From assembly GCF_002723915.1 (NCBI RefSeq), contig NZ_BEWL01000007.1, positions 1 through 64,000 of the forward strand: a stretch of DNA of 64,000 nucleotides, in the 5' to 3' direction. Below the pieces are notes generated by a model. It did not search any database and was not told the DNA's origin. It worked only from the letters and a program-made list of their open reading frames with translations. The stretch is from Gluconobacter albidus (GTDB lineage Bacteria; Pseudomonadota; Alphaproteobacteria; Acetobacterales; Acetobacteraceae). The translations under genes and the position numbers were made by a program. Shown here piece by piece: positions 4,795 to 53,969 of the stretch; the stretch's first letter is position 1, and every line of letters starts with the position of its first letter.

Positions 4795-5668
4795 CTTAAA
4801 AACCTCTGCCTGCCTTGGCGCGGTCATTCTTGCTGTCATGGCAGGAACGGCCGCAGCCCGGGCACTGCCGGAAGGCCGAAGCCTTGAGAATGCCGTCATA
4901 GCGGGCGAGCATCTCGATGTTTCGGTCTTTCGGCCTGCGTCCTGCCAGATCCGGGCCATCCTGATCGTTCTGGCAGGAAAAGAGCGGAACAGCGCGACAT
5001 ATCGTGACGACGCCATTCCGCTGGCCAGACATGAATGCAGTCTGGTGTTTGCGCCTTATTTTTCCATATCCCGTTTTCCCGTCCAGCAGTATCAGCGCGG
5101 GGGGTTTCCAGCCTCGGCACAGAGCATGGTTCCTGCCGCCCTGTATATGAGGCCGCTGGAACAGTGGGCCCGCAACGTTTCCGACGAGCCCCACGTGCCG
5201 ATCATTCTGGTAGGGCATTCTGCAGGAGCCCAGTATCTGGAACGGGTTGCAGCTTATGCTCCGGGAGAAGAGGTCATGACGATCATCATGAACCCCTCCA
5301 CCTATGTCGAACCCGAGACGAATACGGCCGTTCCTTACGGCTTCCGCAACTGGCCCGAAGCGGCCAGCCTGCCGGACCTCCGGCGCTATCTTTCAAGCAA
5401 TATTGCCGTCATTCTGGGCGCGGAAGATACGGAAACCTCTTCGGCGACGGAACATCTGGCCGCCGCGACGGAACAGGGGCGCAACCGTCTTGAGCGGGGA
5501 CAGTGGGCCTATGCGCAGGCCCGGGAGCAGGCCGACAAGCTCAATGTTCCGTTTGGCTGGACGATTACCCTTGTTCCGGCAACGGGACATGCTTCCGCCA
5601 AAATGCTGGCGTCCGCCGAATTGCAGGACGCCGTCGAGAGTGCAATCAGGTCCGCGTCTTCACGATGA
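4787..5668 (+). CDS. Secreted alpha/beta hydrolase, function unknown
   Basis: Predicted periplasmic alpha/beta-hydrolase of about 293 aa. The start chosen is the TTG at 4787, which overlaps the end of valS by 8 bp. It places a clean signal peptide at the N-terminus (hydrophobic [12 protein letters not shown], cleavage near AAARA), and a GGCGG/GGGG stretch lies just upstream. The longer reading frame from 4691 would bury the signal peptide behind a basic extension. The nucleophile elbow VGHSAGA puts the likely catalytic Ser at residue 145, and a late GHASAK gives a candidate catalytic His. Overlap with valS suggests co-transcription. The 3' end runs convergently into ilvD, with 23 bp of overlap. 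I cannot name a substrate. Confidence 0.78.
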
Positions 5669-7502
5669 TCTGTGACAGGTCGCGGACGGCGCCATGGGCG
5701 GCACTCGTGGTCATGGCGGCATAGGCCTGAAGGGCTTTCGAGACCACGCGCTCCCGGTTGGGCTTCCACGCATCTACGCCACGCGCATTCATCCGCTCCC
5801 GCCGATCGGCGATGTCGGCATCCGAAACGGCGAGATGCAGGCCGCGCCTGGGGATGTCGATCTCAATACGATCGCCGTCCTCGACCAGTCCGATCAGGCC
5901 GCCTTCGGCAGCTTCGGGAGACATGTGACCGATGGAAAGACCCGAGCTTCCGCCTGAGAAGCGGCCATCCGTGATGAGGGCGCAAACCTTGCCCAGACCC
6001 TTCGATTTCAGATAGCTCGTCGGATACAGCATTTCCTGCATGCCGGGGCCACCCTTGGGGCCTTCGTAGCGGATGACCACGACGTCTCCGGCCACAATAC
6101 GGTTGCCAAGGATCGCGGCTACGGCGTCATCCTGGCTTTCAAACACGCGTGCCGTTCCCGTAAAGGTCAGGATGCTGGCTTCGACACCGGCCGTTTTGAC
6201 GATGGCGCCATCTTCGGCGAGGTTGCCGTACAGCACGGCCAGTCCGCCATCCTGCGAGAAGGCATGGGCCTTGTCGCGCAGCACTCCGGCTTCACGGTCC
6301 TGATCCAGTTCATGATAGCGGCTGGACTGCGAGAAAGCGTGGACCGTGCGGACGTTGCCTGGCGCGGCCTTGAACATATGGGCGGCTTCCTCATCCCCGC
6401 TCAGGATGTCCCATTTCTTCAGTGCATCGCCGAGTGTGGGCGCGTGAACAGTGGGAACATCCGTGTGAATCAGGCCTGCGCGGTTCAGTTCACCCAGAAT
6501 GGCCGGGATGCCGCCTGCGCGATGGACGTCTTCCATGTGCACATCATTCTTGGCCGGGGCCACTTTGCACAGATTGGGGACGCCACGCGAGAGGCGGTCA
6601 ATGTCGTGCATGTGGAAATCGACGTCACCTTCGCGGGCGGCGGCCAGAAGATGCAGGACCGTGTTGGTCGAGCCACCCATGGCGATGTCGAGCGTCATGG
6701 CGTTCTCGAAGGCCGCGCGGGTTGCTATGCTGCGGGGCAGGGCGGAGGCGTCGTCCTGTTCGTACCAGCGGCGTGCGAGTTCCACGACCAGACGACCAGC
6801 GTTCAGGAACAGTTCGCGGCGGTCGCTGTGTGTGGCCAGCAGCGAACCGTTGCCGGGCAGGGACAGTCCCAGCGCTTCGGTCAGGCAGTTCATGGAATTG
6901 GCCGTGAACATACCCGAGCACGAACCGCAGGTCGGGCAGGCGGAGCGTTCGATCTGTTCGGACTCGCTGTCGGACACGTCAGGATTGGCGGCCGCGACCA
7001 TGGAGTCAATCAGGTCCAGCTTGCGCGTCACACCGGGGCCGTTGATTTTGCCGGCCTCCATCGGGCCGCCGGAGACGAACACGACGGGGATGTTCAGGCG
7101 CATGGACGCCATCAGCATGCCGGGCGTGATCTTGTCGCAGTTGCTGATGCAGACGATGGCGTCAGCGCAGTGCGCATTGACCATATATTCCACGGAATCC
7201 GCGATCAGCTCCCGCGATGGCAGGGAATACAGCATGCCGCCATGGCCCATCGCGATGCCGTCATCGACTGCAATCGTGTTGAATTCCTTGGCAATTCCGC
7301 CGACTTCCTCGATCGCGGACGCCACCAGACTACCCATGTCCTTCAGATGGACATGGCCCGGGACGAACTGCGTGAAGGAATTGGCAATGGCGATAATGGG
7401 TTTGCCGAAATCGCCATCCTTCATACCCGTCGCCCGCCAGAGCGCACGGGCGCCAGCCATGTTGCGGCCGTGAGTGGTGGTGCGGGAGCGATAGGCAGGC
7501 AT
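5646..7502 (-). CDS. ilvD: Dihydroxy-acid dehydratase
   Basis: Third step of branched-chain amino-acid synthesis: dehydrates 2,3-dihydroxyisovalerate and 2,3-dihydroxy-3-methylvalerate to the 2-oxo acids. It is an Fe-S enzyme. The start at 7502 gives [17 protein letters not shown], matching the E. coli N-terminus; an in-frame ATG five codons upstream is less likely. The product is 618 aa. Fe-S ligands are visible in SNCDK (C122) and CPTCGSCSG (C195), and the [14 protein letters not shown] region is intact. Its 3' end overlaps the end of the convergent hydrolase by 23 bp. It is divergent from the ester hydrolase gene at 7655. Confidence 0.98.
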
Positions 7503-7654
7503 GGAACAGACTTTCATGACGGAAGAAGGCCCTGATCCATAGCGAATCAGACGCGCAGAAGCCAGTGCAGGAAAGATATGAAAACCGGAGCCTGCTCCTC
7601 TTGCCCCGATGTCGCCCTCCGGTCCAAACTCTGGATAAAGATCAGGAGCCCTTC

Positions 7655-9598
7655 GTGAGACGTCATTTTCTGAGCCTCGGCACAGCTCTGGCCGTAACCT
7701 GCCTGTATGCAGCGCACGCCGCCGAACCCACTTCCAGCCTGCCGGTCACGCCCGACATGATCCAGACCGGCAGCGACATCCCTGCCCATGTCAGCATGCC
7801 ACCGGTCGAGCGCGACTACATCAAGCGCGACGTCATGATTCCGATGCGCGACGGTATCAAGCTCCATACCGTCATCGTCATTCCCAAAGATGCCAAAAAC
7901 GCGCCGATGCTGCTGACGCGCACGCCCTACAATGCCAGCAAGCGCGCCAGCCGCGATGCCGATGCGAAAACCATGCGTGCGCTCCTGCCGCAGGGAGACG
8001 ACGTGTTCGTGGACGGGGGCTATATCCGCGTTTTTCAGGACATCCGCGGCAAATACGGCTCACAGGGGGATTACGTGATGACGCGGCCCCCGATCGGTCC
8101 GCTGAACCCGACGAAGACGGATGATACAACCGACGCCTGGGATACGGTCGACTGGCTGGTCAAGAACGTACCGCAGGGAAATGGCCGCGTCGGCATGACT
8201 GGATCGTCCTATGAGGGCTGGACGGTCGTCATGGCGCTGCTGGATCCCCATCCGGCCCTGAAGGTCGCGTCTCCGGAAAGCCCGATGGTTGATGGCTGGA
8301 TGGGCGATGACTGGTTCCATTACGGCGCATTCCGCCAGCCCAGTCTGGACTATTTTGCCGGACAGATGGCTGCGGCGGGTTCCGGCGTCTCTCTCGACCG
8401 TCCTGATGAGGACGACTACACGACGTTCCTTGCGGATGTTTCCACCGGCAATTTCGCGACGAAAGCCGGGCTGGACCAGTTCCCCTGGTGGCGCCGTACG
8501 AAAGCGCATCCGGCCTACGACGCCTTCTGGCAGGATCAGGCGCTGGATCAGCTGATCGTAAAAAAGCCGCTCAAGGTTCCGACCATCTGGGAACAGGGGC
8601 TGTGGGACCAGGAAGACATGTGGGGGGCAATCCATTCCTGGATGAACCTCAAGGCGCACCATACGCAGGTTCCGAACATTCTCGTCATGGGGCCGTGGCG
8701 CCATAGCGGCGTGAACTATGATGGTTCCACGCTTGGTCCGCTGCATTTCAATGGCGACACGGCGCTGTGGTATCGCGCCAATGTCATGCGCCCGTTCTTT
8801 GACCACTATCTGAAGAACGCGCCGGATCCGCATCTGGACGAAGCCATCATTTACAATACCGGCGAGAACCACTGGGATCACTTCCGCAACTGGCTGAGCG
8901 ACTGCGGCACGTCGTGCATGCAGAAGGGCGAGCGCCTGTACCTCCAGCCTGATCACGGCCTCGCGTTCAAGCGGACCTTGCCCGGAACGGACAGCTATGT
9001 GGCTGATCCGGCGCATCCGGTGCCGTTTGTCGAGCGTCCTTACATGATGGACGGAGATCCGCGCTGGAAGCCCTGGCTGGTGTCGGATCAGCGTTTCGCC
9101 GAAAGCCGTCCAGATGTCCTGACCTACGAGACCCCCGTTCTCGATGCGCCGGTTCGGGTGTCTGGCGTACCGACTGCGGATCTGTTCGCCACGACCACCG
9201 GGACGGATGCGGACTGGGTTGTGAAGATCATCGACGTCCAGCCGGGACACACGCCGGACAATCCCAAAATGGGCGGCTATGAACTGCCGATGTCCATGGA
9301 TATTTTCCGGGGCCGCTACCGGCAGAATTTTGCCCATCCGTCCGCTATTCCGGCGGGGCAGGTGCAGGAATACCACTTCACGCTTCCGGCCATGAACCAT
9401 GTGTTCCTCAAGGGACACCGGATCATGATCCAGATCCAGTCGAGCTGGTTTCCGCTCTATGACCGCAATCCGCAGACCTTCGTGCCGAATATCTTCGACG
9501 CCAAGGCACCGGATTACCATTCGGCCACGCAGACCATCCACCGGGGTGGCGACCATGCCAGCGCCGTGTGGCTCCCGATCGTCACGGCAGCCCCATAA
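7655..9598 (+). CDS. Alpha-amino-acid ester hydrolase (CocE/NonD family)
   Basis: Periplasmic serine hydrolase of the X-Pro dipeptidyl-peptidase S15 fold, closest to alpha-amino-acid ester hydrolases that hydrolyse or synthesise beta-lactams with an alpha-amino acyl side chain. The GTG at 7655 is chosen because AGGAG lies 6 bp upstream and it begins directly with a signal peptide ([19 protein letters not shown]); the frame is open from 7565. The product is 647 aa. The motif GSSYEG places the nucleophile at S185, with D318 in the LWDQED motif and H350 in MGPWRHS. As I recall, the Acetobacter turbidans enzyme has its triad at S205, D338 and H370, exactly the same spacing. Its carboxylate cluster (D239, E340, D341) also maps onto D219, E320 and D321 here. 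A C-terminal jelly-roll domain follows. The family is firm; the true natural substrate is unknown. Confidence 0.88.
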
Positions 9599-44464: not shown

Positions 44465-45697
44465 TTACTGCGCGGGGCCATGGCCCAGACGGGTCATGGC
44501 ACGGGCGACCAGTCCAAGTTTCGCAACCGATTCGCCGGCTTCAAGCGGCACACGGATATCGGCCATGTTCGGCGCGGAAATCACGAGAGCTCCACAAACC
44601 TGCCCCTTCGTCACCGGTGCGATAACCGGCGACGCGTAATCCACGGCGATATGAGAGCGCTGCTGCCAGCCGACGGGCAGAGTCATGACGATATCGGCCC
44701 CGGCAACCAGCGGAACCTGACGGTGTTCGCCCATCCACACAGGTACGGAGTCCACGACCTGCCCGCGACGGAACACCGTGGCGTTCTCGAAATTCGCAAA
44801 CGCCCAGGACATCAGACGCTCGCCTTCATGGGCGCGCTCGTTGCTCGACGCCGTGCCGTTGATGACGACGATCACGCGGTTGCCGTTGCGCTTGGAACTG
44901 GCACAGAGACCAAAACCGCCCGCATCGGTGTGACCGGTCTTCAGGCCGTCAGCAAGGCCCTTGTCCACCAGGACGTTCCGGTTGCCCTGACGGATGTGAT
45001 TGTAGGTGAACTCAAGTTCGCCGAAGTAATGGTAGTACTGCGGGAAATCGCGGATCAGATGCGAGGCCACGGTCGCGACATCGCGGGCCGTCATGTAGTG
45101 CCCGTCCGCCGGAAGGCCCGTCACGTTGAGGAAGTGCGAGTTCATCATGCCGAGCTTCGGCGCTTCCTCGTTCATCATCGCGACGAAGCGCTCTTCGGAC
45201 CCGGCGATGCCTTCGGCGAGCACAATGCAGGCATCATTGCCGGACTGGATCAGCATACCCTGGATCAGGTCGGACACCAGAACGCTCTGGCCCAGCGGCA
45301 CGAACATCTTGGAGCCCTGCGTACGCCAGGCCTTCTCGCTGACCGGCAGGCTCTGTTCCAGACGGATACGGCCCGTCGCCAGCATGCCGAACACGATATA
45401 GGCCGTCATCATCTTCGTAAGCGAAGACGGAGCCATACGCTCGTCAGACGCCTTGTCGAGCAGGACGGCGCCCGTGTCATAATCCACGACATAGGCCCAA
45501 CGCGCCACGGTATCGAACGGGCCGATCGGCGTGTTCGCGGGCGTTCCAGCCGGCGCGTCTGCCGCAGGAGCCGCAGCAGCTTTCGCGGCGTGGGCCGCAT
45601 GGTGGTGCGGGCGGGCAAACGCCTTCAGGGGTCCCGCAAAAGAAGCACAGGCCGCAATGCCTGCCACCCCACCGAAAAGAGAGCGTCTAGTCCGCAC
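44465..45697 (-). CDS. D-alanyl-D-alanine carboxypeptidase (PBP5/6-like, peptidase S11)
   Basis: Removes the terminal D-Ala from peptidoglycan pentapeptides, limiting cross-linking. The catalytic motifs are SLTK (in MAPSSLTKMM), SGN (IQSGNDACI) and KTG (DGLKTGHTDAGG). The GTG at 45697 (protein begins MRTRRSLFGGVAG) has a good GGGGA ribosome binding site and starts at a signal sequence with two adjacent Arg (RTRRSLFGG), suggestive of Tat export. An ATG at 45739 overlapping the RlpA-like stop (ATGA) is an alternative that would add 14 residues. A His/Ala/Pro-rich segment follows the signal. It lies downstream of two other cell-wall genes. Confidence 0.9.
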   Translation of the reverse strand: MRTRRSLFGGVAGIAACASFAGPLKAFARPHHHAAHAAKAAAAPAADAPAGTPANTPIGPFDTVARWAYVVDYDTGAVLLDKASDERMAPSSLTKMMTAYIVFGMLATGRIRLEQSLPVSEKAWRTQGSKMFVPLGQSVLVSDLIQGMLIQSGNDACIVLAEGIAGSEERFVAMMNEEAPKLGMMNSHFLNVTGLPADGHYMTARDVATVASHLIRDFPQYYHYFGELEFTYNHIRQGNRNVLVDKGLADGLKTGHTDAGGFGLCASSKRNGNRVIVVINGTASSNERAHEGERLMSWAFANFENATVFRRGQVVDSVPVWMGEHRQVPLVAGADIVMTLPVGWQQRSHIAVDYASPVIAPVTKGQVCGALVISAPNMADIRVPLEAGESVAKLGLVARAMTRLGHGPAQ

Positions 45698-45735
45698 GTT
45701 CGTCCCCAGTTCCACGGCCTTCAGACAACGGGCCG

Positions 45736-46587
45736 TCATTCCACAATGATCCGCGCGCCCTCTACCCCGCACAGGCGGGTGTGGTCCAGTGCCGCATCCG
45801 CCTGTGCGATGTCAGCAAAGGGTCCACCAAGAACACGCCACTCAAGTCCAGCACCTTCGGAGGCATGCAGAACCGTACCGCTACAGCGCAGGGCGACACC
45901 TGCCGCCGCCGCATGACCGGAAAATATTCCCATCAGCACATACAGCCCCGCTGGCCCCGGACTGCCCTGCATCCATGTTACGGGCAATGGCCCTACGGCC
46001 ACGGACGTCGCCGCAGCGGACGAGTCGTTGCCATAGACGTGCGAGGACCCGTCACTCAGCGATGTTTCGCGCACTTCGCCCACCGGAGCGGCAGAAATGC
46101 TCTGTGCGGCGGGTCTGCCACCCAGTCCTTCCGCCAGTGTACGACTGGCAACCTCGTCTTCCATGACTTCGACAGGCGTGTCTGCCGTCATACCCAGCAG
46201 GTCAGCCGCTTTTGGGGAAAGTGCGATGATGCGCCCCTGCCCCTGTGGTCCACGATCCGTCAGGCGGATGCGCACGATCCGCCCGTTCAGCAGATTGCGG
46301 ACGCTAACGATCGCCGGAAGCTGGAGCGTCTGGTGTGCGCCAGTCATTCCCTCTGCGGACCAGATCTCCCCATCGGCGGTCAGGCCCGAGGCAGGCGCGT
46401 TTTGACGCGTTGCCAGGCCTGTCATGCGGTAGTCAAACTGCTCGCCGGGGTAGAACCATCCCTGTGCGCCATGCCAAGCAGCGCCCAGTTCGTAATGCGG
46501 ATGTGCAACAGGCGCGGGTTCATCGCGATGACACGCGCCCAGAACCGGCAGAAGGGCCAGAACGGCCCCGCAGTTACGCAGAAACAA
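45736..46587 (-). CDS. RlpA-like lipoprotein with SPOR domain
   Basis: Predicted septal-ring lipoprotein of the RlpA family (double-psi beta-barrel, lytic transglycosylase in some members). A lipobox VLGAC follows a hydrophobic stretch. The barrel region spans roughly residues 50-155 (ASGLTADGEIWS, RLTDRGPQGQGRIIALSPKAADLLGM). The C-terminal 75 residues resemble a SPOR peptidoglycan-binding domain (GLYVLMGIFSGHAAAAGVALR). The TTG at 46587 is favoured as start because GGGGAC precedes it; the ATG at 46620 lies inside the upstream gene and lengthens the N-terminus by 11. It overlaps both neighbours, consistent with an operon for cell-wall trimming. Confidence 0.82.
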   Translation of the reverse strand: MFLRNCGAVLALLPVLGACHRDEPAPVAHPHYELGAAWHGAQGWFYPGEQFDYRMTGLATRQNAPASGLTADGEIWSAEGMTGAHQTLQLPAIVSVRNLLNGRIVRIRLTDRGPQGQGRIIALSPKAADLLGMTADTPVEVMEDEVASRTLAEGLGGRPAAQSISAAPVGEVRETSLSDGSSHVYGNDSSAAATSVAVGPLPVTWMQGSPGPAGLYVLMGIFSGHAAAAGVALRCSGTVLHASEGAGLEWRVLGGPFADIAQADAALDHTRLCGVEGARIIVE

Positions 46588-47581
46588 TGCCCGTCCCCAG
46601 AAGTCCGACGCCCAGAGCATAGTAGTCCGACGGGTTGTACCGGCGGATCACGTTGAAGTTGTGATAAACCATGAACGCCTGCGTTCCCGGACCATCGGGC
46701 TGCACGACAGCGCCCTTCACGTCCCGGCGCGAGAACGCCGTCCCGTCCGCACGGCGCACGCCCAGCGCCATCCATTCAGCCAGCGTCCGCTGACGGGTCC
46801 GGCCGATCTCGGTCTTGTCGAGTGTTTTGGCGAGAGTGATTTCCTGCCCCCAGGGTTCGTTGACCTGCCAGCCGCACTTGCCGAGATAATTGGCGATGGA
46901 TGCGAACACATCTGCTTCCGACGTCCAGATATTGCGCTTGCCGTCTCCGTCTCCGTCCGCCGCATAGCGCAGATAGGCGCTGGGCATGAACTGCGCCTGC
47001 CCCATGGCCCCGGCATAGCTGCCGATCATGGCCGCAGGCGCGATATCGCCGTCATTGAGGATCTGGAGCGCTTTCATGAGCTCGTTGCGGAAAAATGCCG
47101 AGCGTCGTCCGTCATAAGCCAGCGTCGCAAGCGCATCGATGACGGAATATGTCCCGTCATGGGCGCCAAAACCCGACTCGAGCCCCCAGATCCCCATGAC
47201 GGCACGGTCGTCGCATCCAAAGCGCGCACTTACGGGAGACATCACGGACTGCTGGGCGCCATAGACACTCCGCCCCTTCGCAAAACGCGACTCCGGCAGG
47301 ACGCGGTCCCGGTACTGCGCCCAGGTCAGGGTGAACTCCGGCTGGTGGCGGTCCAGCTTGAGGACGGAGGCATTGGGGGTGCGGGTCAGAGCGAGCGCCT
47401 GTGAGACAATCGACGGCACAATCCCCTGTGTCAGAGCCTGCGTCCGGACGCTGTCGAGAAAAGCTGCGTAACTCTGCGCCGAAGTCTGGGCCGCAGCCTG
47501 CGCTCTGGCAGAGGAAAGCCCCATTGCGGCCGAACCGGCAACGGAGGTCAGGGTGGCAAGCAGATGACGTCTTTGAAGCAC
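46574..47581 (-). CDS. Lytic murein transglycosylase, MltB-like
   Basis: Cleaves the glycan strands of peptidoglycan, forming 1,6-anhydroMurNAc ends. The product is about 335 aa from the GTG at 47581, which starts at a signal peptide (LQRRHLLATLTSVAGSAAMGLSSARA). The catalytic Glu is in GIWGLESGFG, and the family motifs SYAGAMGQAQFMPSAYLRYAADGDGDGKR and YNPSDYYALGVG are present. A second GTG at 47623 has no ribosome binding site. No lipobox, so it appears soluble and periplasmic rather than lipidated like E. coli MltB. First gene of the minus-strand run that continues to tmk. Confidence 0.9.
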   Translation of the reverse strand: MLQRRHLLATLTSVAGSAAMGLSSARAQAAAQTSAQSYAAFLDSVRTQALTQGIVPSIVSQALALTRTPNASVLKLDRHQPEFTLTWAQYRDRVLPESRFAKGRSVYGAQQSVMSPVSARFGCDDRAVMGIWGLESGFGAHDGTYSVIDALATLAYDGRRSAFFRNELMKALQILNDGDIAPAAMIGSYAGAMGQAQFMPSAYLRYAADGDGDGKRNIWTSEADVFASIANYLGKCGWQVNEPWGQEITLAKTLDKTEIGRTRQRTLAEWMALGVRRADGTAFSRRDVKGAVVQPDGPGTQAFMVYHNFNVIRRYNPSDYYALGVGLLGTGIVSA

Positions 47582-47774
47582 GGTCAGGACCAGTCCCTTG
47601 CAGGGAGAAATGATAGGGCACACGCTAGCAATCCGCAGCCCGGACCGCCAGCCTCGCCAGAACTCTCTCAGGACCTTGGCAGAGCATTCGCGCCGAAATA
47701 TGGCACGGCAAGATTGTCGCGGGCGCGCTGGCGTGCGAAACCGGCGACTGAATGTTCATGGACCCTCCCCACTC

Positions 47775-48341
47775 GTGATCGCCATCGGCCCCGCCATGGC
47801 CTCGCAGCCAGCATGGCTGAAGGCAGCCACCATCATTGTGGGCACCTTCATCCTTGAAGACGTGGCCACAGTGCTTTCCGCTGTCGCGGCCCGTGCCGGC
47901 GAGGTCAGTATTCCGCTGGCTCTGATGGCGCTCTATTTCGGCGTGGCGGTCGGAGACCTTGGCCTGTACGGCCTTGGGGCCGCCGGTGCACGCTGGCCTT
48001 ACCTCAGGCGCTTCCTGACGCTCCCCAAGCGCGAACGCACACAGGACTGGTTCAGCGCCAATGTCATCCGCATCGTCGCCATCTCCCGCTTCGTGCCCGG
48101 TGCCCGGCTTCCGCTCTATACGGCCTGCGGTTTTTTCCGCGCGCCCTTCCTGCGCTTTGCCCTGACGGCAGTTCTGGCTACGCTGGTGTGGACGACATGT
48201 CTTTTTCTGCTCGCCATGCGGGTCGGCGGCTGGCTTCTTGCCCATCAGGGCGGCTGGCGCTGGGCCGGACTGGCGGGTTTTGTCCTGTGTATCGTCGTCG
48301 TCGGGCGTCTGATCGCCCGTCTCCAGACCGTGAGCCAATAA
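47775..48341 (+). CDS. DedA/SNARE-associated family membrane protein
   Basis: Inner-membrane protein of the DedA family; some members recycle undecaprenyl phosphate by flipping it across the membrane. The product is about 188 aa with four to five hydrophobic segments. The family pattern is visible in IVGTFILEDVATVLSAVAARAG (re-entrant region, acidic pair) and ISRFVPGARLPLYTACGFF (conserved Arg and Pro). The start is uncertain: GTG at 47775 or ATG at 47796; longer frames from 47598 add an unlikely polar extension. The ATP-grasp gene starts 5 bp after it, so they form a pair. Confidence 0.8.
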   Translation: MIAIGPAMASQPAWLKAATIIVGTFILEDVATVLSAVAARAGEVSIPLALMALYFGVAVGDLGLYGLGAAGARWPYLRRFLTLPKRERTQDWFSANVIRIVAISRFVPGARLPLYTACGFFRAPFLRFALTAVLATLVWTTCLFLLAMRVGGWLLAHQGGWRWAGLAGFVLCIVVVGRLIARLQTVSQ

Positions 48342-48346
48342 CAGCA

Positions 48347-49411
48347 ATGTCCAAGCCAGAAGCCGATCAGAACCCGCTTTCCCTCTTCGAGTTCTGGCCC
48401 GGTTCCATCTTCTACACGCCCATCGTCCTGTACTGGATCGTCATGGGGATCAAATACCGTGATCTCAGCATCTCGACCGCCGCCAATCCGCGCATCGAAA
48501 CGGGTGGCCTGTGTGGTGAGAGCAAATCGTCCATTCTCGACATGGGAGGCGCCACGGCACAGTCCTTTATCGCGCCCTATGCCGTCTTCCGCAGCGGCAA
48601 AGGGGCGGACCACCGTGCGCTGGATGCCATGACGCGCAAGGGCCTGTCCTTTCCCGTCGTCATCAAGCCCGATATCGGCTGTAATGGGACTGGCGTGAAA
48701 CTCGTCCACTCCCGTGAGCAACTTGAAACGGTTCTGCCCCAGTTTCCTGATGACGTGGACATGCTGGTGCAGGAACTCATCACCTATCCCGTCGAGGCCG
48801 GACTGTTCTACATCCGCCACCCCGATGAACCGCATGGCCGCATCACCTCCATTACCTACAAGGAAGCACCGGTCCTGACAGGTGATGGCGTTTCCACAAT
48901 CGAGGAACTGGTCCTGAGGGACGCGCGCATGAGTCTCGTCCCGCAGATCTATCTGCCCCGCCTTGCCGGGCGGGAAAAGAACATACTTGCCAAGGGAGAA
49001 GAGATGTCGCTGGTCTTCGCGGGCAATCACTGCAAGGGGTCCGTCTTCCGGGATGGCCACGCCGATACGACCGACGCGCTGACGGCTCGTCTGGACGCCA
49101 TCATGCAGGATATTCCGGATTTCCATTTCGGGCGCGTGGACGTGAAAGCCGCCTCCATCGAGGATCTGCGGCGTGGCGAGAATTTACGGATTATTGAAAT
49201 CAACGGCGTCGGGTCTGAAGCCACCCATATCTGGGACCGGCGGACGACGCTCTGGGAAGCCTATCGCGCCCAGTTCTCCCATTACCGGCAGACGTTCCTG
49301 ATCGGTGCCGCCAACCGGGCGCGGGGCTGGAAAACGTCAGGCGCGTTCTCGATGCTGCATTCCTGGCGCAAACAGCGTCGCCTGCTGGCGTCCTATCCGC
49401 TCAACGACTGA
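48347..49411 (+). CDS. ATP-grasp domain protein, carboxylate-amine/thiol ligase-like
   Basis: 354-aa protein with an ATP-grasp core. The N-terminus carries a hydrophobic, aromatic segment (IFYTPIVLYWIVMGI, about residues 20-34), so it is probably membrane-associated. ATP-grasp features include FPVVIKPDIGCNGTGVKLV (glycine-rich loop), VQELITYPVEAGLFY and the metal-binding IIEINGVGSE near the end. The family joins a carboxylate to an amine or thiol using ATP (as in D-Ala-D-Ala ligase), but the substrate here cannot be told. It is coupled to DedA (5 bp), pointing to an envelope role. Confidence 0.8.
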   Translation: MSKPEADQNPLSLFEFWPGSIFYTPIVLYWIVMGIKYRDLSISTAANPRIETGGLCGESKSSILDMGGATAQSFIAPYAVFRSGKGADHRALDAMTRKGLSFPVVIKPDIGCNGTGVKLVHSREQLETVLPQFPDDVDMLVQELITYPVEAGLFYIRHPDEPHGRITSITYKEAPVLTGDGVSTIEELVLRDARMSLVPQIYLPRLAGREKNILAKGEEMSLVFAGNHCKGSVFRDGHADTTDALTARLDAIMQDIPDFHFGRVDVKAASIEDLRRGENLRIIEINGVGSEATHIWDRRTTLWEAYRAQFSHYRQTFLIGAANRARGWKTSGAFSMLHSWRKQRRLLASYPLND

Positions 49412-49424
49412 AGGGCCGCGGGCC

Positions 49425-49889
49425 TTACTGGCCCAGCTTGCCACCACCGAAAATATAATTGCTGACCTGCTGCTCTAGCGAGAGCTGATCCTGCGTATCG
49501 GTGATCTTGCCCTCGCTGGAGAGCGTCGTGCGGGAATGACCCGGCTGGATCTGCAGGGCGTTGTCGGCCGTCATGGTCGGGGCACCGATTCCCACAGCCG
49601 TATCCACCGGAAGATGCAGGCGCTGGTCCACCGTAAAGGCGACATCCGCCATCTGCGTTCTGGGGTCGAGCGTGATGGACACGACGCGCCCGACTGGAAC
49701 ACCCGCGAGATCGACATTCGCCCCCGCATGAAGCCCGTTCGCGGAATTAAAGGCAGCATGCAGGACGGAGCCCTGAAAATCCGGCCCCTTGCGCAGGGCA
49801 TTGCCGTAGGCGAGGAACGTTCCGGCAATCGCCAGCACCAGACCACTGGCTAGGATGGCGCCCCCGCGGCCGCTCAATGTTGACTGCAT
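49425..49889 (-). CDS. MlaD family protein (outer membrane lipid asymmetry)
   Basis: 154-aa MCE-domain protein of the MlaD type, the periplasm-facing, membrane-anchored ring of the Mla phospholipid transporter. An N-terminal membrane anchor (ILASGLVLAIAGTFLAYG) precedes the MCE domain (VLHAAFNSANGLHAGANVDLAGVPVGRVVSITLD). Its usual partners mlaE, mlaF and mlaC are not in the window. It is convergent with the ATP-grasp gene (13 bp apart) and divergent from uppP. Confidence 0.9.
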   Translation of the reverse strand: MQSTLSGRGGAILASGLVLAIAGTFLAYGNALRKGPDFQGSVLHAAFNSANGLHAGANVDLAGVPVGRVVSITLDPRTQMADVAFTVDQRLHLPVDTAVGIGAPTMTADNALQIQPGHSRTTLSSEGKITDTQDQLSLEQQVSNYIFGGGKLGQ

Positions 49890-49941
49890 GCCAGCCTCGC
49901 CTTCCGGAAAATCTTGAACAGACCGGGAGTTAGTCCTCCCA

Positions 49942-49955
49942 TGACCGACCGGTCA
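49942..49955. promoter_or_regulatory. Operator-like palindrome between mlaD and uppP
   Basis: TGACCGACCGGTCA: TGACCG and CGGTCA separated by AC, in the 158-bp divergent gap, with a GGGAG/CTCCC hairpin (49925-49940) next to it. The shape resembles TetR-family operators. No regulator gene is adjacent. Confidence 0.45.
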
Positions 49956-50047
49956 AGGCTACATCCGTGGTTGCGTCGATTGTAACCATCGGGCAAGTGA
50001 TTTCTTTTCCGCCTTTGCAAACGAAGGCCTTCACCGAGACAGGCTCC

Positions 50048-50890
50048 ATGACGCTTCTTCAAGCCCTCATTCTCGCCGTCGTCCAAGGAATTACCGAACC
50101 CTTTCCGGTAAGCAGCCTTGGTCATGCCGTTCTCCTTCCCGCGCTTCTGCACTGGGATCTGGATGAGCACGCACCGATGTTCCTGCCGTTCCTGACCATG
50201 CTTCACGTCGGAACGCTGGTCGCACTGGCGGGTGTGTTCTGGAAAGACTGGGTAGCTATTCTGACCGGAATGATGGGCCGTCATGGCCGCCACGCCCAGA
50301 TGGATGCGATTCGGGTCTTTGTGCTCCTCGTCATCGCCACCATTCCCGCCGTGCTGGTCGGCTGGCTTCTGGAGCATCGTCTGCGGAATGTTTTCGGCTC
50401 TCCCATCGCGGTGGCGGGTTTCCTGATTCTCAACGGATTCCTGTTGATGGCTACCGAGTGGCTCCGCCGCCAGAAAGGCCAGCGCGACCATCGACCCATT
50501 TCGACACTCGCTCCGAAAGATGCTGCCATCATCGGTGTCTGGCAGTGCCTTGCCCTTCTGCCCGGCCTGTCGCGCTCCGGCGCCACCATGAATGGCGGTC
50601 TCCTGCGGGGGCTGGACCATGAAACGGCCGCGCGCTTCTCCCTACTGATGGCCCAGCCGATTGTGCTGGCCGCAACGGTCCGGGAAGCCTGGCAGATGCG
50701 TCACATGACGATCTCACATGATGTCATGGTGCAGTGCGTTGCAGGCGCCATCGTCGCGGGGATAACCGCGCTGATCTGCTCGCTCCTCATGCTGCGTTTC
50801 TTCCGCAACCATGACGGCTGGGCGCTCACACCGTTCGGCGTCTACTGCATCGTGGCCGGGGCGTTTTCCGCAGCCGTCATCCTTCTCTGA
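50048..50890 (+). CDS. uppP: Undecaprenyl-diphosphatase
   Basis: Integral membrane phosphatase that converts undecaprenyl diphosphate to the monophosphate, recycling the lipid carrier for peptidoglycan and polysaccharides; also called BacA. The ATG at 50048 gives 280 aa and the family N-terminus (LLQALILAVVQGITE), with an AGGCT ribosome binding site. The first motif is ITEPFPVSSLGH (Leu where Thr is usual in the E. coli type) and the second is PGLSRSGATM. About eight membrane helices. Divergent from mlaD. Confidence 0.95.
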   Translation: MTLLQALILAVVQGITEPFPVSSLGHAVLLPALLHWDLDEHAPMFLPFLTMLHVGTLVALAGVFWKDWVAILTGMMGRHGRHAQMDAIRVFVLLVIATIPAVLVGWLLEHRLRNVFGSPIAVAGFLILNGFLLMATEWLRRQKGQRDHRPISTLAPKDAAIIGVWQCLALLPGLSRSGATMNGGLLRGLDHETAARFSLLMAQPIVLAATVREAWQMRHMTISHDVMVQCVAGAIVAGITALICSLLMLRFFRNHDGWALTPFGVYCIVAGAFSAAVILL

Positions 50891-53894: not shown

Positions 53895-53969
53895 GGCGGT
53901 GTAGCTCAGTGGTAGAGCAGGGGAATCATAATCCCTTGGTCGGCGGTTCAAATCCGTCCACCGCTACCA
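53895..53969 (+). tRNA. tRNA with CAU anticodon (tRNA-Met or tRNA-Ile2)
   Basis: A 75-nt cloverleaf with encoded CCA. The acceptor stem GGCGGTG pairs with CACCGCT (one G-U at the end), and the D arm is GCTC/GAGC. The anticodon stem GGGGA/TCCCT encloses ATCATAA with CAT at positions 34-36, and the T arm is GGCGG with the TTCAAAT loop. The first pair and anticodon stem exclude an initiator tRNA. CTTGGTCG and the GGTTCAA context resemble the E. coli tRNA-Ile2 whose C34 becomes lysidine, so it may read AUA rather than AUG; identity between the two is unresolved. Confidence 0.95.

Follow-up and report, generated by a model that had tools for sequence, protein, structure and literature searches.

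What do an ATP-grasp ligase and a DedA-family membrane protein accomplish together when their genes are separated by just 5 bases? The question is raised by a stretch of 64,000 nucleotides from Gluconobacter albidus (contig NZ_BEWL01000007.1, positions 1 to 64,000; hereafter the window), in which a first-pass annotation had described an "envelope cluster" of DedA, ATP-grasp, MlaD-like, and UppP genes. All four genes are present within 3 kb, as claimed, but the real unit is the pair of DedA and ATP-grasp genes; the UppP and MlaD-like genes are two neighbours. Because this unit recurs beside, or together with, ornithine-lipid enzymes across many proteobacteria, the pair probably modifies and moves an ornithine-type lipid.

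The DedA and ATP-grasp genes

The two genes and the relevant elements of the ligase are located in the window as follows:

47796–48341, plus strand: DedA/VTT-family membrane protein, with an alternative GTG start at 47775 (PF09335, VTT_dom, 41.5 bits against a cut-off of 33.9)
48342–48346, plus strand: intergenic gap of 5 bases between the DedA stop (TAA, 48339–48341) and the ATP-grasp start (ATG, 48347), as given in the first-pass annotation
48347–49411, plus strand: ATP-grasp ligase of 354 amino acids, with a predicted ATP-grasp fold (AlphaFold2; PDB matches at Z 14.6–15.6)
48404–48454, plus strand: hydrophobic helix near the N-terminus of the ligase (residues 20–36), a possible membrane anchor
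48665–48667, plus strand: codon of ligase residue Lys107, identical in 41 of 41 alignment rows
49139–49204, plus strand: ligase residues Asp265, Glu284, and Asn286, identical in 41 of 41 alignment rows; presumed Mg2+/ATP ligands

The pairing is almost invariant among acetic acid bacteria. When named genomes were scanned with the ligase, 109 loci were found, the best 80 of which were used for the counts in this group. Among these 80, the closest named relatives of the window ligase are from Gluconobacter species (92–97% identity), and 79 have a DedA gene immediately upstream of the ATP-grasp gene; at the exception (L080), the sequence starts at a contig end 36 bases before the ligase match, and the DedA side is not visible. 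A start codon falls within −4 to +8 nucleotides of the DedA stop in all 79 loci with a visible DedA, which indicates that the spacing is not due to chance, and in many of these loci stop and start overlap. The pair is also present in Gluconobacter cerinus NBRC 3267 (L032).

The same arrangement extends across alpha- and gammaproteobacteria. A profile built from 15 ligase sequences of acetic acid bacteria or their near kin detected the ligase (E ≤ 1e-20) in at least 25 of 289 genomes of the class, in at least 8 further genomes among 299 drawn from the phylum, and, among 101 genomes of one particular family, in 49. This family, that of G368, is taken as Vibrionaceae because the match in its member G732 sits at the same place as one in a Salinivibrio record (H18); the counts for class and phylum are lower bounds because at most seven candidates per genome were scored. 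Among 31 distant loci opened from the class and phylum draws (stretches of 3.5–13 kb; 23 of them alphaproteobacterial), DedA is adjacent to the ligase in 24, fused to it in one open frame in four (L118, L149, L153, and L164), and not seen in three. The adjacent cases include three close kin (L157–L159) and one locus from Acetobacteraceae, the family of the window itself (L135). A plasmid collection contributed 28 ligase matches, all of them in proteobacterial genera. Among the six that were opened (L165–L170), an Azospirillum plasmid (L165) encodes a fifth fusion, annotated as "VTT domain-containing protein", the two genes are adjacent in L167 (Salinivibrio) and L169, and on a Paracoccus plasmid (L166) DedA is located one gene away on the opposite strand.

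The five fusions occupy three places on a 42-row tree of the ligase, two of them inside one larger clade, and probably arose in two or three events, as far as the tree topology indicates. Such repeated fusion is strong evidence that DedA and ATP-grasp act together. The tie between the two proteins proposed by the first-pass annotation is therefore borne out by conservation across two classes, by gene fusions, and by the existence of a separate DedA subfamily (see below); at the loci opened, the adjacency was not confined to one lineage, and no ortholog of the ligase was found in a peptide natural-product context.

The partner DedA is readily told apart from other members of its family. The genome to which the window belongs has four VTT-domain genes. 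A profile built from 15 partner DedAs, all from outside Acetobacteraceae, assigned 164.3 bits to the DedA of the window and 28.7 bits to the next best of the four, whereas the other two gave no match at E ≤ 0.01. By its sequence, the partner DedA is an ATP-grasp-linked subfamily of its own, distinct from UptA. An identity of the window DedA with UptA was rejected on score (30.8 bits against a cut-off of 250 for NF052604 and 22.6 against 300 for NF052605).

The AlphaFold2 model of the ligase (15 alignment rows) has a predicted local distance difference test score (pLDDT) of 83.0 and a predicted template modelling score (pTM) of 0.82. In structural alignments with VIA-align, it is closest to cyanophycin synthetase (7wae; Z 15.6, 4.3 Å over 263 residues), LysX/ArgX (5k2m; Z 15.2, 3.9 Å over 220 residues), and bifunctional glutathione synthetase (3ln6; Z 14.6, 4.8 Å over 275 residues), followed by RimK and D-Ala-D-Ala ligases (Z 11.8–13.3). 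Eight residues (K107, Q142, E150, R263, D265, E284, N286, and E291) do not vary among 41 rows of the tree alignment, that is, all 42 rows minus a truncated one. Lys107 presumably binds ATP, and D265, E284, and N286 are taken to be Mg2+/ATP ligands, as in ATP-grasp enzymes; the pattern of conservation fits an active enzyme. With its fold resembling cyanophycin synthetase and LysX/ArgX and its catalytic residues retained, the ligase should join a carboxylate to an amine.

In sequence searches, every Pfam or NCBIfam match of the ligase is weak and below cut-off (the best Pfam ATP-grasp match reaches 18.5 bits against 24), and a sequence search of solved structures gave only weak ATP-grasp matches, the best with an E-value of 0.033. 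The name D-alanine–D-alanine ligase, which some relatives bear in public records, was rejected (TIGR01205, 15.7 bits against 245.65). The most hydrophobic 17-residue stretch of the ligase (residues 19–35) overlaps the helix at residues 20–36, which is hydrophobic to a varying degree across the 42 rows (Kyte–Doolittle means of 0.27 to 1.65); in the AlphaFold2 model, residues 24–36 are helical.

Aminolipid synthase genes near the ligase

A connection to aminolipids is most evident outside the alphaproteobacteria. All eight non-alphaproteobacterial loci (L157–L164) encode an OlsF-like protein in the ligase cluster (39–100% identity to that of L157 by blastp). The acyltransferase domains PF19576 and PF13444 were confirmed in the proteins of L157 and L164, the two of the eight that were scored with Pfam and NCBIfam; the other six are known by their blastp likeness. 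In L164, the OlsF-like gene lies approximately 40 bases upstream of the DedA–ATP-grasp fusion. Among the Vibrionaceae, 42 of the 49 ligase-positive genomes encode a PF13444 protein on the same strand within 8 kb of the ligase, and 23 of these 42 show one or more additional PF13444 matches. Three of the 42 represent shortened or interrupted genes (L191–L193).

On a Variovorax plasmid (L170), a ligase gene is followed by an OlsB-like gene (PF13444, 110.6 bits against 22.4) and then by lplT, which encodes a lysophospholipid transporter (439.7 bits against 297), in a cluster without DedA. The first-pass suggestion of an uncharacterised lipid modification fits these aminolipid-synthase neighbours. 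Passages on OlsF in a published study (PMC12186959) describe ornithine-lipid formation in Escherichia coli by two OlsF homologs, one of which is the final gene in a putative operon of four. A link of the cluster OlsF-like proteins to Vibrio cholerae VCA0646 is not claimed; the N-terminus implied by a published primer matched none of those compared.

Ligase and PF13444 also co-occur at the level of genomes. In the class, the domain is present in 24 of 25 ligase-positive versus 163 of 264 ligase-negative genomes (Fisher p 0.00017), in 8 of 8 versus 152 of 290 genomes of the phylum draw with the genome of the window set aside (p 0.0064), and in 48 of 49 versus 25 of 52 genomes of Vibrionaceae (p 3e-9), where 5 of the 25 PF13444-bearing, ligase-negative genomes have weak matches (E about 1e-7). 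PF13444 is absent from two ligase-positive genomes, G247, which is 57% complete, and G759, which is fragmented. In alphaproteobacteria, the link to PF13444 is one of co-occurrence only.

Several other genes were observed in the surroundings of the ligase. The three shortened or frame-interrupted clusters of Vibrionaceae (L191 in G792, L192 in G735, and L193 in G802) are remnants; in one of them, DedA and the beginning of the ligase survive, whereas just the end is left of the OlsF-like gene. The module seems to have been lost in places within this family, or else the drafts are faulty, and intact copies are present in relatives. Small YHS-domain proteins are encoded near the pair in L118 (263–781), L142, L143, and the gammaproteobacterial loci L157–L163, and DoxX-like membrane proteins with weak Pfam scores in L142, L143, L153, L158, L159, and L163; the two types recur in both alpha- and gammaproteobacteria (e.g., L142:2351–3356 and L143:9699–10650). 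Seven alphaproteobacterial loci (L137–L141, L143, and L156) have an alpha/beta hydrolase gene upstream of DedA (domain confirmed for L137, L138, and L141), and another is located near the ligase of the Paracoccus plasmid (L166:9147–10109); it is conceivable that the hydrolase acts in the same pathway as a lipase or esterase. Upstream of the DedA-less ligases of two plasmids (L170:6104–6994 and L168:6079–7888) are genes for an "iron-containing redox enzyme" of the Haem_oxygenas_2 type (domain match in L170; in L168, recognized by eye) and for a methyltransferase-type protein (L168; in L170, recognized by eye), which possibly represent further lipid-tailoring enzymes.

A candidate reaction and competing explanations

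The genome of the window encodes both an OlsB-like protein (277.9 bits against 350 for NF052554 and 273.4 against 320 for NF052555; PF13444, 119.2 bits against 22.4) and an OlsA-like protein (206.1 and 147.3 bits against 300 for NF052553 and NF052552, respectively), neither of them linked to the pair. Since the OlsB and OlsA models are the best library matches of these proteins, albeit below the equivalog cut-offs, the organism can plausibly make ornithine lipid. On contig C15 of the same genome (L198), an acyltransferase gene is flanked by genes that, by eye, resemble those of a phytoene desaturase and a glycosyltransferase, an arrangement reminiscent of carotenoid-ester synthesis.

The group activated by ATP-grasp enzymes is a carboxylate, and in the ornithine–taurine lipid cerilipin, an amide bond joins taurine to the alpha-carboxylate of ornithine. 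According to passages describing its structure, ornithine lipid carries an acyl group on the alpha-amine and therefore retains a free carboxylate. The passages on cerilipin in three publications place the lipid in Gluconobacter cerinus, in a literature that dates back to 1976 (PMC4484230, PMC12493201, PMC10191378). Passages on ornithine-lipid modification name hydroxylation, methylation, taurine transfer, and transamination, and they give no gene for the taurine step and neither an ATP-grasp enzyme nor a DedA protein for it. According to PMC10191378, a ligation step is likewise missing for flavolipin, a glycine–serine lipid of Bacteroidota.

These observations can be combined into a mechanism, in which the N-terminal hydrophobic helix or, in the fusions, DedA itself would anchor the ATP-grasp enzyme to the cytoplasmic side of the inner membrane. 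There, the enzyme would transfer phosphate from ATP to the carboxylate that is free in the amino-acid head group of the lipid and then couple this group to an amine; DedA would carry the product, or else its precursor, across the membrane to the outer leaflet. In Gluconobacter, OlsB and OlsA would supply ornithine lipid as the precursor, and the amine would most plausibly be taurine (ornithine lipid + taurine + ATP → cerilipin + ADP + phosphate). An ornithine-type lipid is the rather likely substrate of the ligase, whereas the role of DedA as translocator of that lipid is evenly balanced between yes and no, and the choice of taurine in Gluconobacter, the weakest link, is tentative. Given the wide spread of the ligase family, the amine may differ between lineages. 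Taken as a whole, the interpretation of DedA and ATP-grasp as a two-part machine acting on an aminolipid of the ornithine-lipid type has about an even chance of being correct. In the alphaproteobacterial locus L150, the ligase is preceded by a gene for a DUF1989 protein (5298–5894) and followed by a short-chain dehydrogenase gene (7072–7848), a context that may hint at another amine.

Several points weigh against the aminolipid interpretation. The function of an aminolipid head-group ligase is predicted from genes, a fold model, and neighbours, and the fold names a superfamily rather than a substrate because the top Z-scores are effectively tied and the Foldseek TM-scores of the model are low (0.34–0.48 by query length). 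The OlsF-like proteins of L157 and L164 (432.3 and 404.9 bits against 620 for NF052615) and the OlsB-like protein of Variovorax (174.9 bits against 320 for NF052555) score below the equivalog cut-offs, so the amino acid in their products could differ. Five of the eight non-alphaproteobacterial loci are from a single family (G368, G396, G474, G519, and G542) and three from others, and the seven ligase-positive Vibrionaceae without a linked PF13444 gene comprise six genomes of genus g380 and one genome in 370 contigs. No OlsB- or OlsF-like gene was found near the pair in the window itself, in any of the 23 alphaproteobacterial loci among the 31, or within 8 kb of the Salinivibrio plasmid copy (L167).

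The Fisher tests are uncorrected for shared ancestry, and the draws overlap in part. Ornithine lipid evidently does not require the ligase, as PF13444 occurs in 163 genomes of the class without a ligase match and as none of the 148 genomes of one family (around G575) gave a match to the ligase, with no positive control for that family. Some ligases have no DedA in view, namely those of three distant loci (L150, L151, and L155) and of the Komagataeibacter (L168) and Variovorax (L170) plasmids. Lastly, a search of the window's genome for a taurine-binding protein gave nothing above the cut-off of the model (69.9 bits against 304.25).

The best-surviving alternative reverses the chemistry: the ATP-grasp enzyme would activate the carboxylate of an amino acid and attach it to the delta-amine of ornithine lipid, and DedA would move the resulting aminoacylated lipid. 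It draws on the same genomic evidence for an aminolipid substrate, and among the nearest structural matches are cyanophycin synthetase and LysX/ArgX, which extend peptide-like chains by amino acids. However, no ATP-grasp enzyme is known to activate a sulfonate, and the acid group of taurine, which is carried by the modified ornithine lipid that the passages cited above report from Gluconobacter, is a sulfonate. Aminoacylation is considered unlikely.

A soluble product is likewise improbable. Here, the ATP-grasp enzyme would form an amide such as an osmolyte or peptide, DedA would be a membrane-homeostasis protein that exports the amide or simply withstands its effects, and the aminolipid synthases would be bystanders in stress-response clusters. 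Ligase copies without a nearby DedA (L150, L151, L155, and L168) are consistent with this scenario, as are YHS, DoxX-like, DinB-like, and NRDE/TANGO2-like neighbours that have no evident role in lipid metabolism. Against it stand the repeated fusions with DedA, the hydrophobic N-terminal helix, the linkage to OlsF and OlsB in gammaproteobacteria and on a betaproteobacterial plasmid, and the occurrence of LplT in the DedA-less Variovorax cluster.

The third alternative involves UppP, one of the neighbours of the pair in the window, which include the following:

46574–47623, minus strand: MltB-type lytic transglycosylase, divergent neighbour upstream of DedA (TIGR02283, 337.7 bits against 248.45)
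49425–49889, minus strand: single-domain MCE (MlaD-like) protein, neighbour outside the unit (PF02470, 60.6 bits against 25.1)
50048–50890, plus strand: UppP/BacA undecaprenyl-diphosphate phosphatase, neighbour outside the unit (NF001397, 435.2 bits against 363)

UppP and MlaD are each present in 79 of the 80 acetic-acid-bacterial loci. UppP is encoded on the strand of the pair in 60 of its 79 loci; the remaining 19, all from Acetobacter, have it on the other strand, starting approximately 1.6–2.6 kb past the ligase. Among the 31 distant loci, the two genes are found near the pair in L135 alone. The MlaD-like protein of the window falls below the MlaD model (TIGR04430, 90.7 bits against 135), and its gene lies on the strand opposite to the pair. 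At the loci opened, UppP and MlaD accompany only the pairs of Acetobacteraceae, and MlaD is encoded on the opposite strand; for these reasons, the two are rejected as functional partners, and what stands of the proposed envelope cluster is the DedA–ATP-grasp unit.

It is thus highly improbable that DedA returns undecaprenyl phosphate or another envelope carrier that the ATP-grasp enzyme modifies, with UppP as a third component: although UppP is encoded within 700 bases and passes its model, and other DedA-family proteins carry undecaprenyl phosphate, the UppP and MlaD neighbours were not found in the other 30 of the 31 distant loci, the DedA of the window falls far below the UptA models, and undecaprenyl phosphate has no carboxylate for an ATP-grasp enzyme to activate, so that the undecaprenyl-phosphate link of the first-pass annotation is not supported.

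Just upstream of the pair, on the minus strand (44465–47623), the MltB-type transglycosylase belongs to a peptidoglycan-processing group that also includes a lytic-transglycolase-domain (DPBB_1) protein and a D-alanyl-D-alanine carboxypeptidase. Rfam and tRNA scans of the window detected only a tRNA-Met at 53895 and nothing at the DedA/ATP-grasp locus.

Relation to known systems

The fold of the ligase, the fold of DedA, and the aminolipid pathway are each known, and their combination was not found in the literature searched, where no publication joins DedA with ornithine lipid or an aminolipid or a VTT domain with ATP-grasp. Publications that mention both DedA and ATP-grasp are, by their titles, not about such a pair, and in the relevant passages of one that mentions ATP-grasp and ornithine lipid, the two are not joined in the sense of a ligase acting on the lipid. 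A 2024 review of aminolipids, in its passages on ATP-grasp enzymes, discusses them for acyl-histidine formation only, and a word search of its main text returned neither flippase nor translocation nor transport.

There is a fair chance that the pair represents a new type of lipid-modifying module. A more specific, still speculative interpretation is that of a dedicated aminolipid ligase–translocase module, which would provide the missing enzyme of cerilipin, the first aminolipid transporter in the literature searched, and a hidden modification of the OlsF product in about half of the Vibrionaceae genomes sampled (49/101). If the aminolipid interpretation is correct, the pair supplies a gene for a head-group reaction and is a candidate for the missing step of the taurine lipid of 1976, and DedA proteins gain a further class of substrates. 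Ornithine lipids are predicted in about half of the sequenced bacterial species, according to a passage in a recent publication (PMC11001654), and mass spectrometry of the lipids of acetic acid bacteria would be a direct test of the interpretation.

The DedA of the pair shares the VTT/DedA domain with the undecaprenyl-phosphate transporters of the UptA type but scores far below their cut-offs and falls into a separate, ATP-grasp-linked subfamily. The lysophospholipid flippase LplT is encoded in the Variovorax ligase cluster that has no DedA; however, it has a major facilitator fold unrelated to that of DedA, and its gene follows the ligase as the second gene downstream instead of immediately preceding it, as DedA does. 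The ornithine-lipid pathway (OlsBA, OlsF) is represented by OlsF- and OlsB-like genes that cluster with the ligase in gammaproteobacteria and on the Variovorax plasmid and by the OlsB- and OlsA-like genes in the genome of the window; the known head-group modifications of ornithine lipid differ from the proposed one in that none is assigned to an ATP-grasp enzyme or DedA in the passages on them. Cyanophycin synthetase, LysX/ArgX, and bifunctional glutathione synthetase share the ATP-grasp fold and conserved catalytic residues with the ligase, and the same chemistry is expected. Unlike these enzymes, with which it has 14–18% identity over the aligned part, the ligase is recognized by no Pfam or NCBIfam model above cut-off, carries a hydrophobic N-terminal helix, and is tied or fused to DedA.

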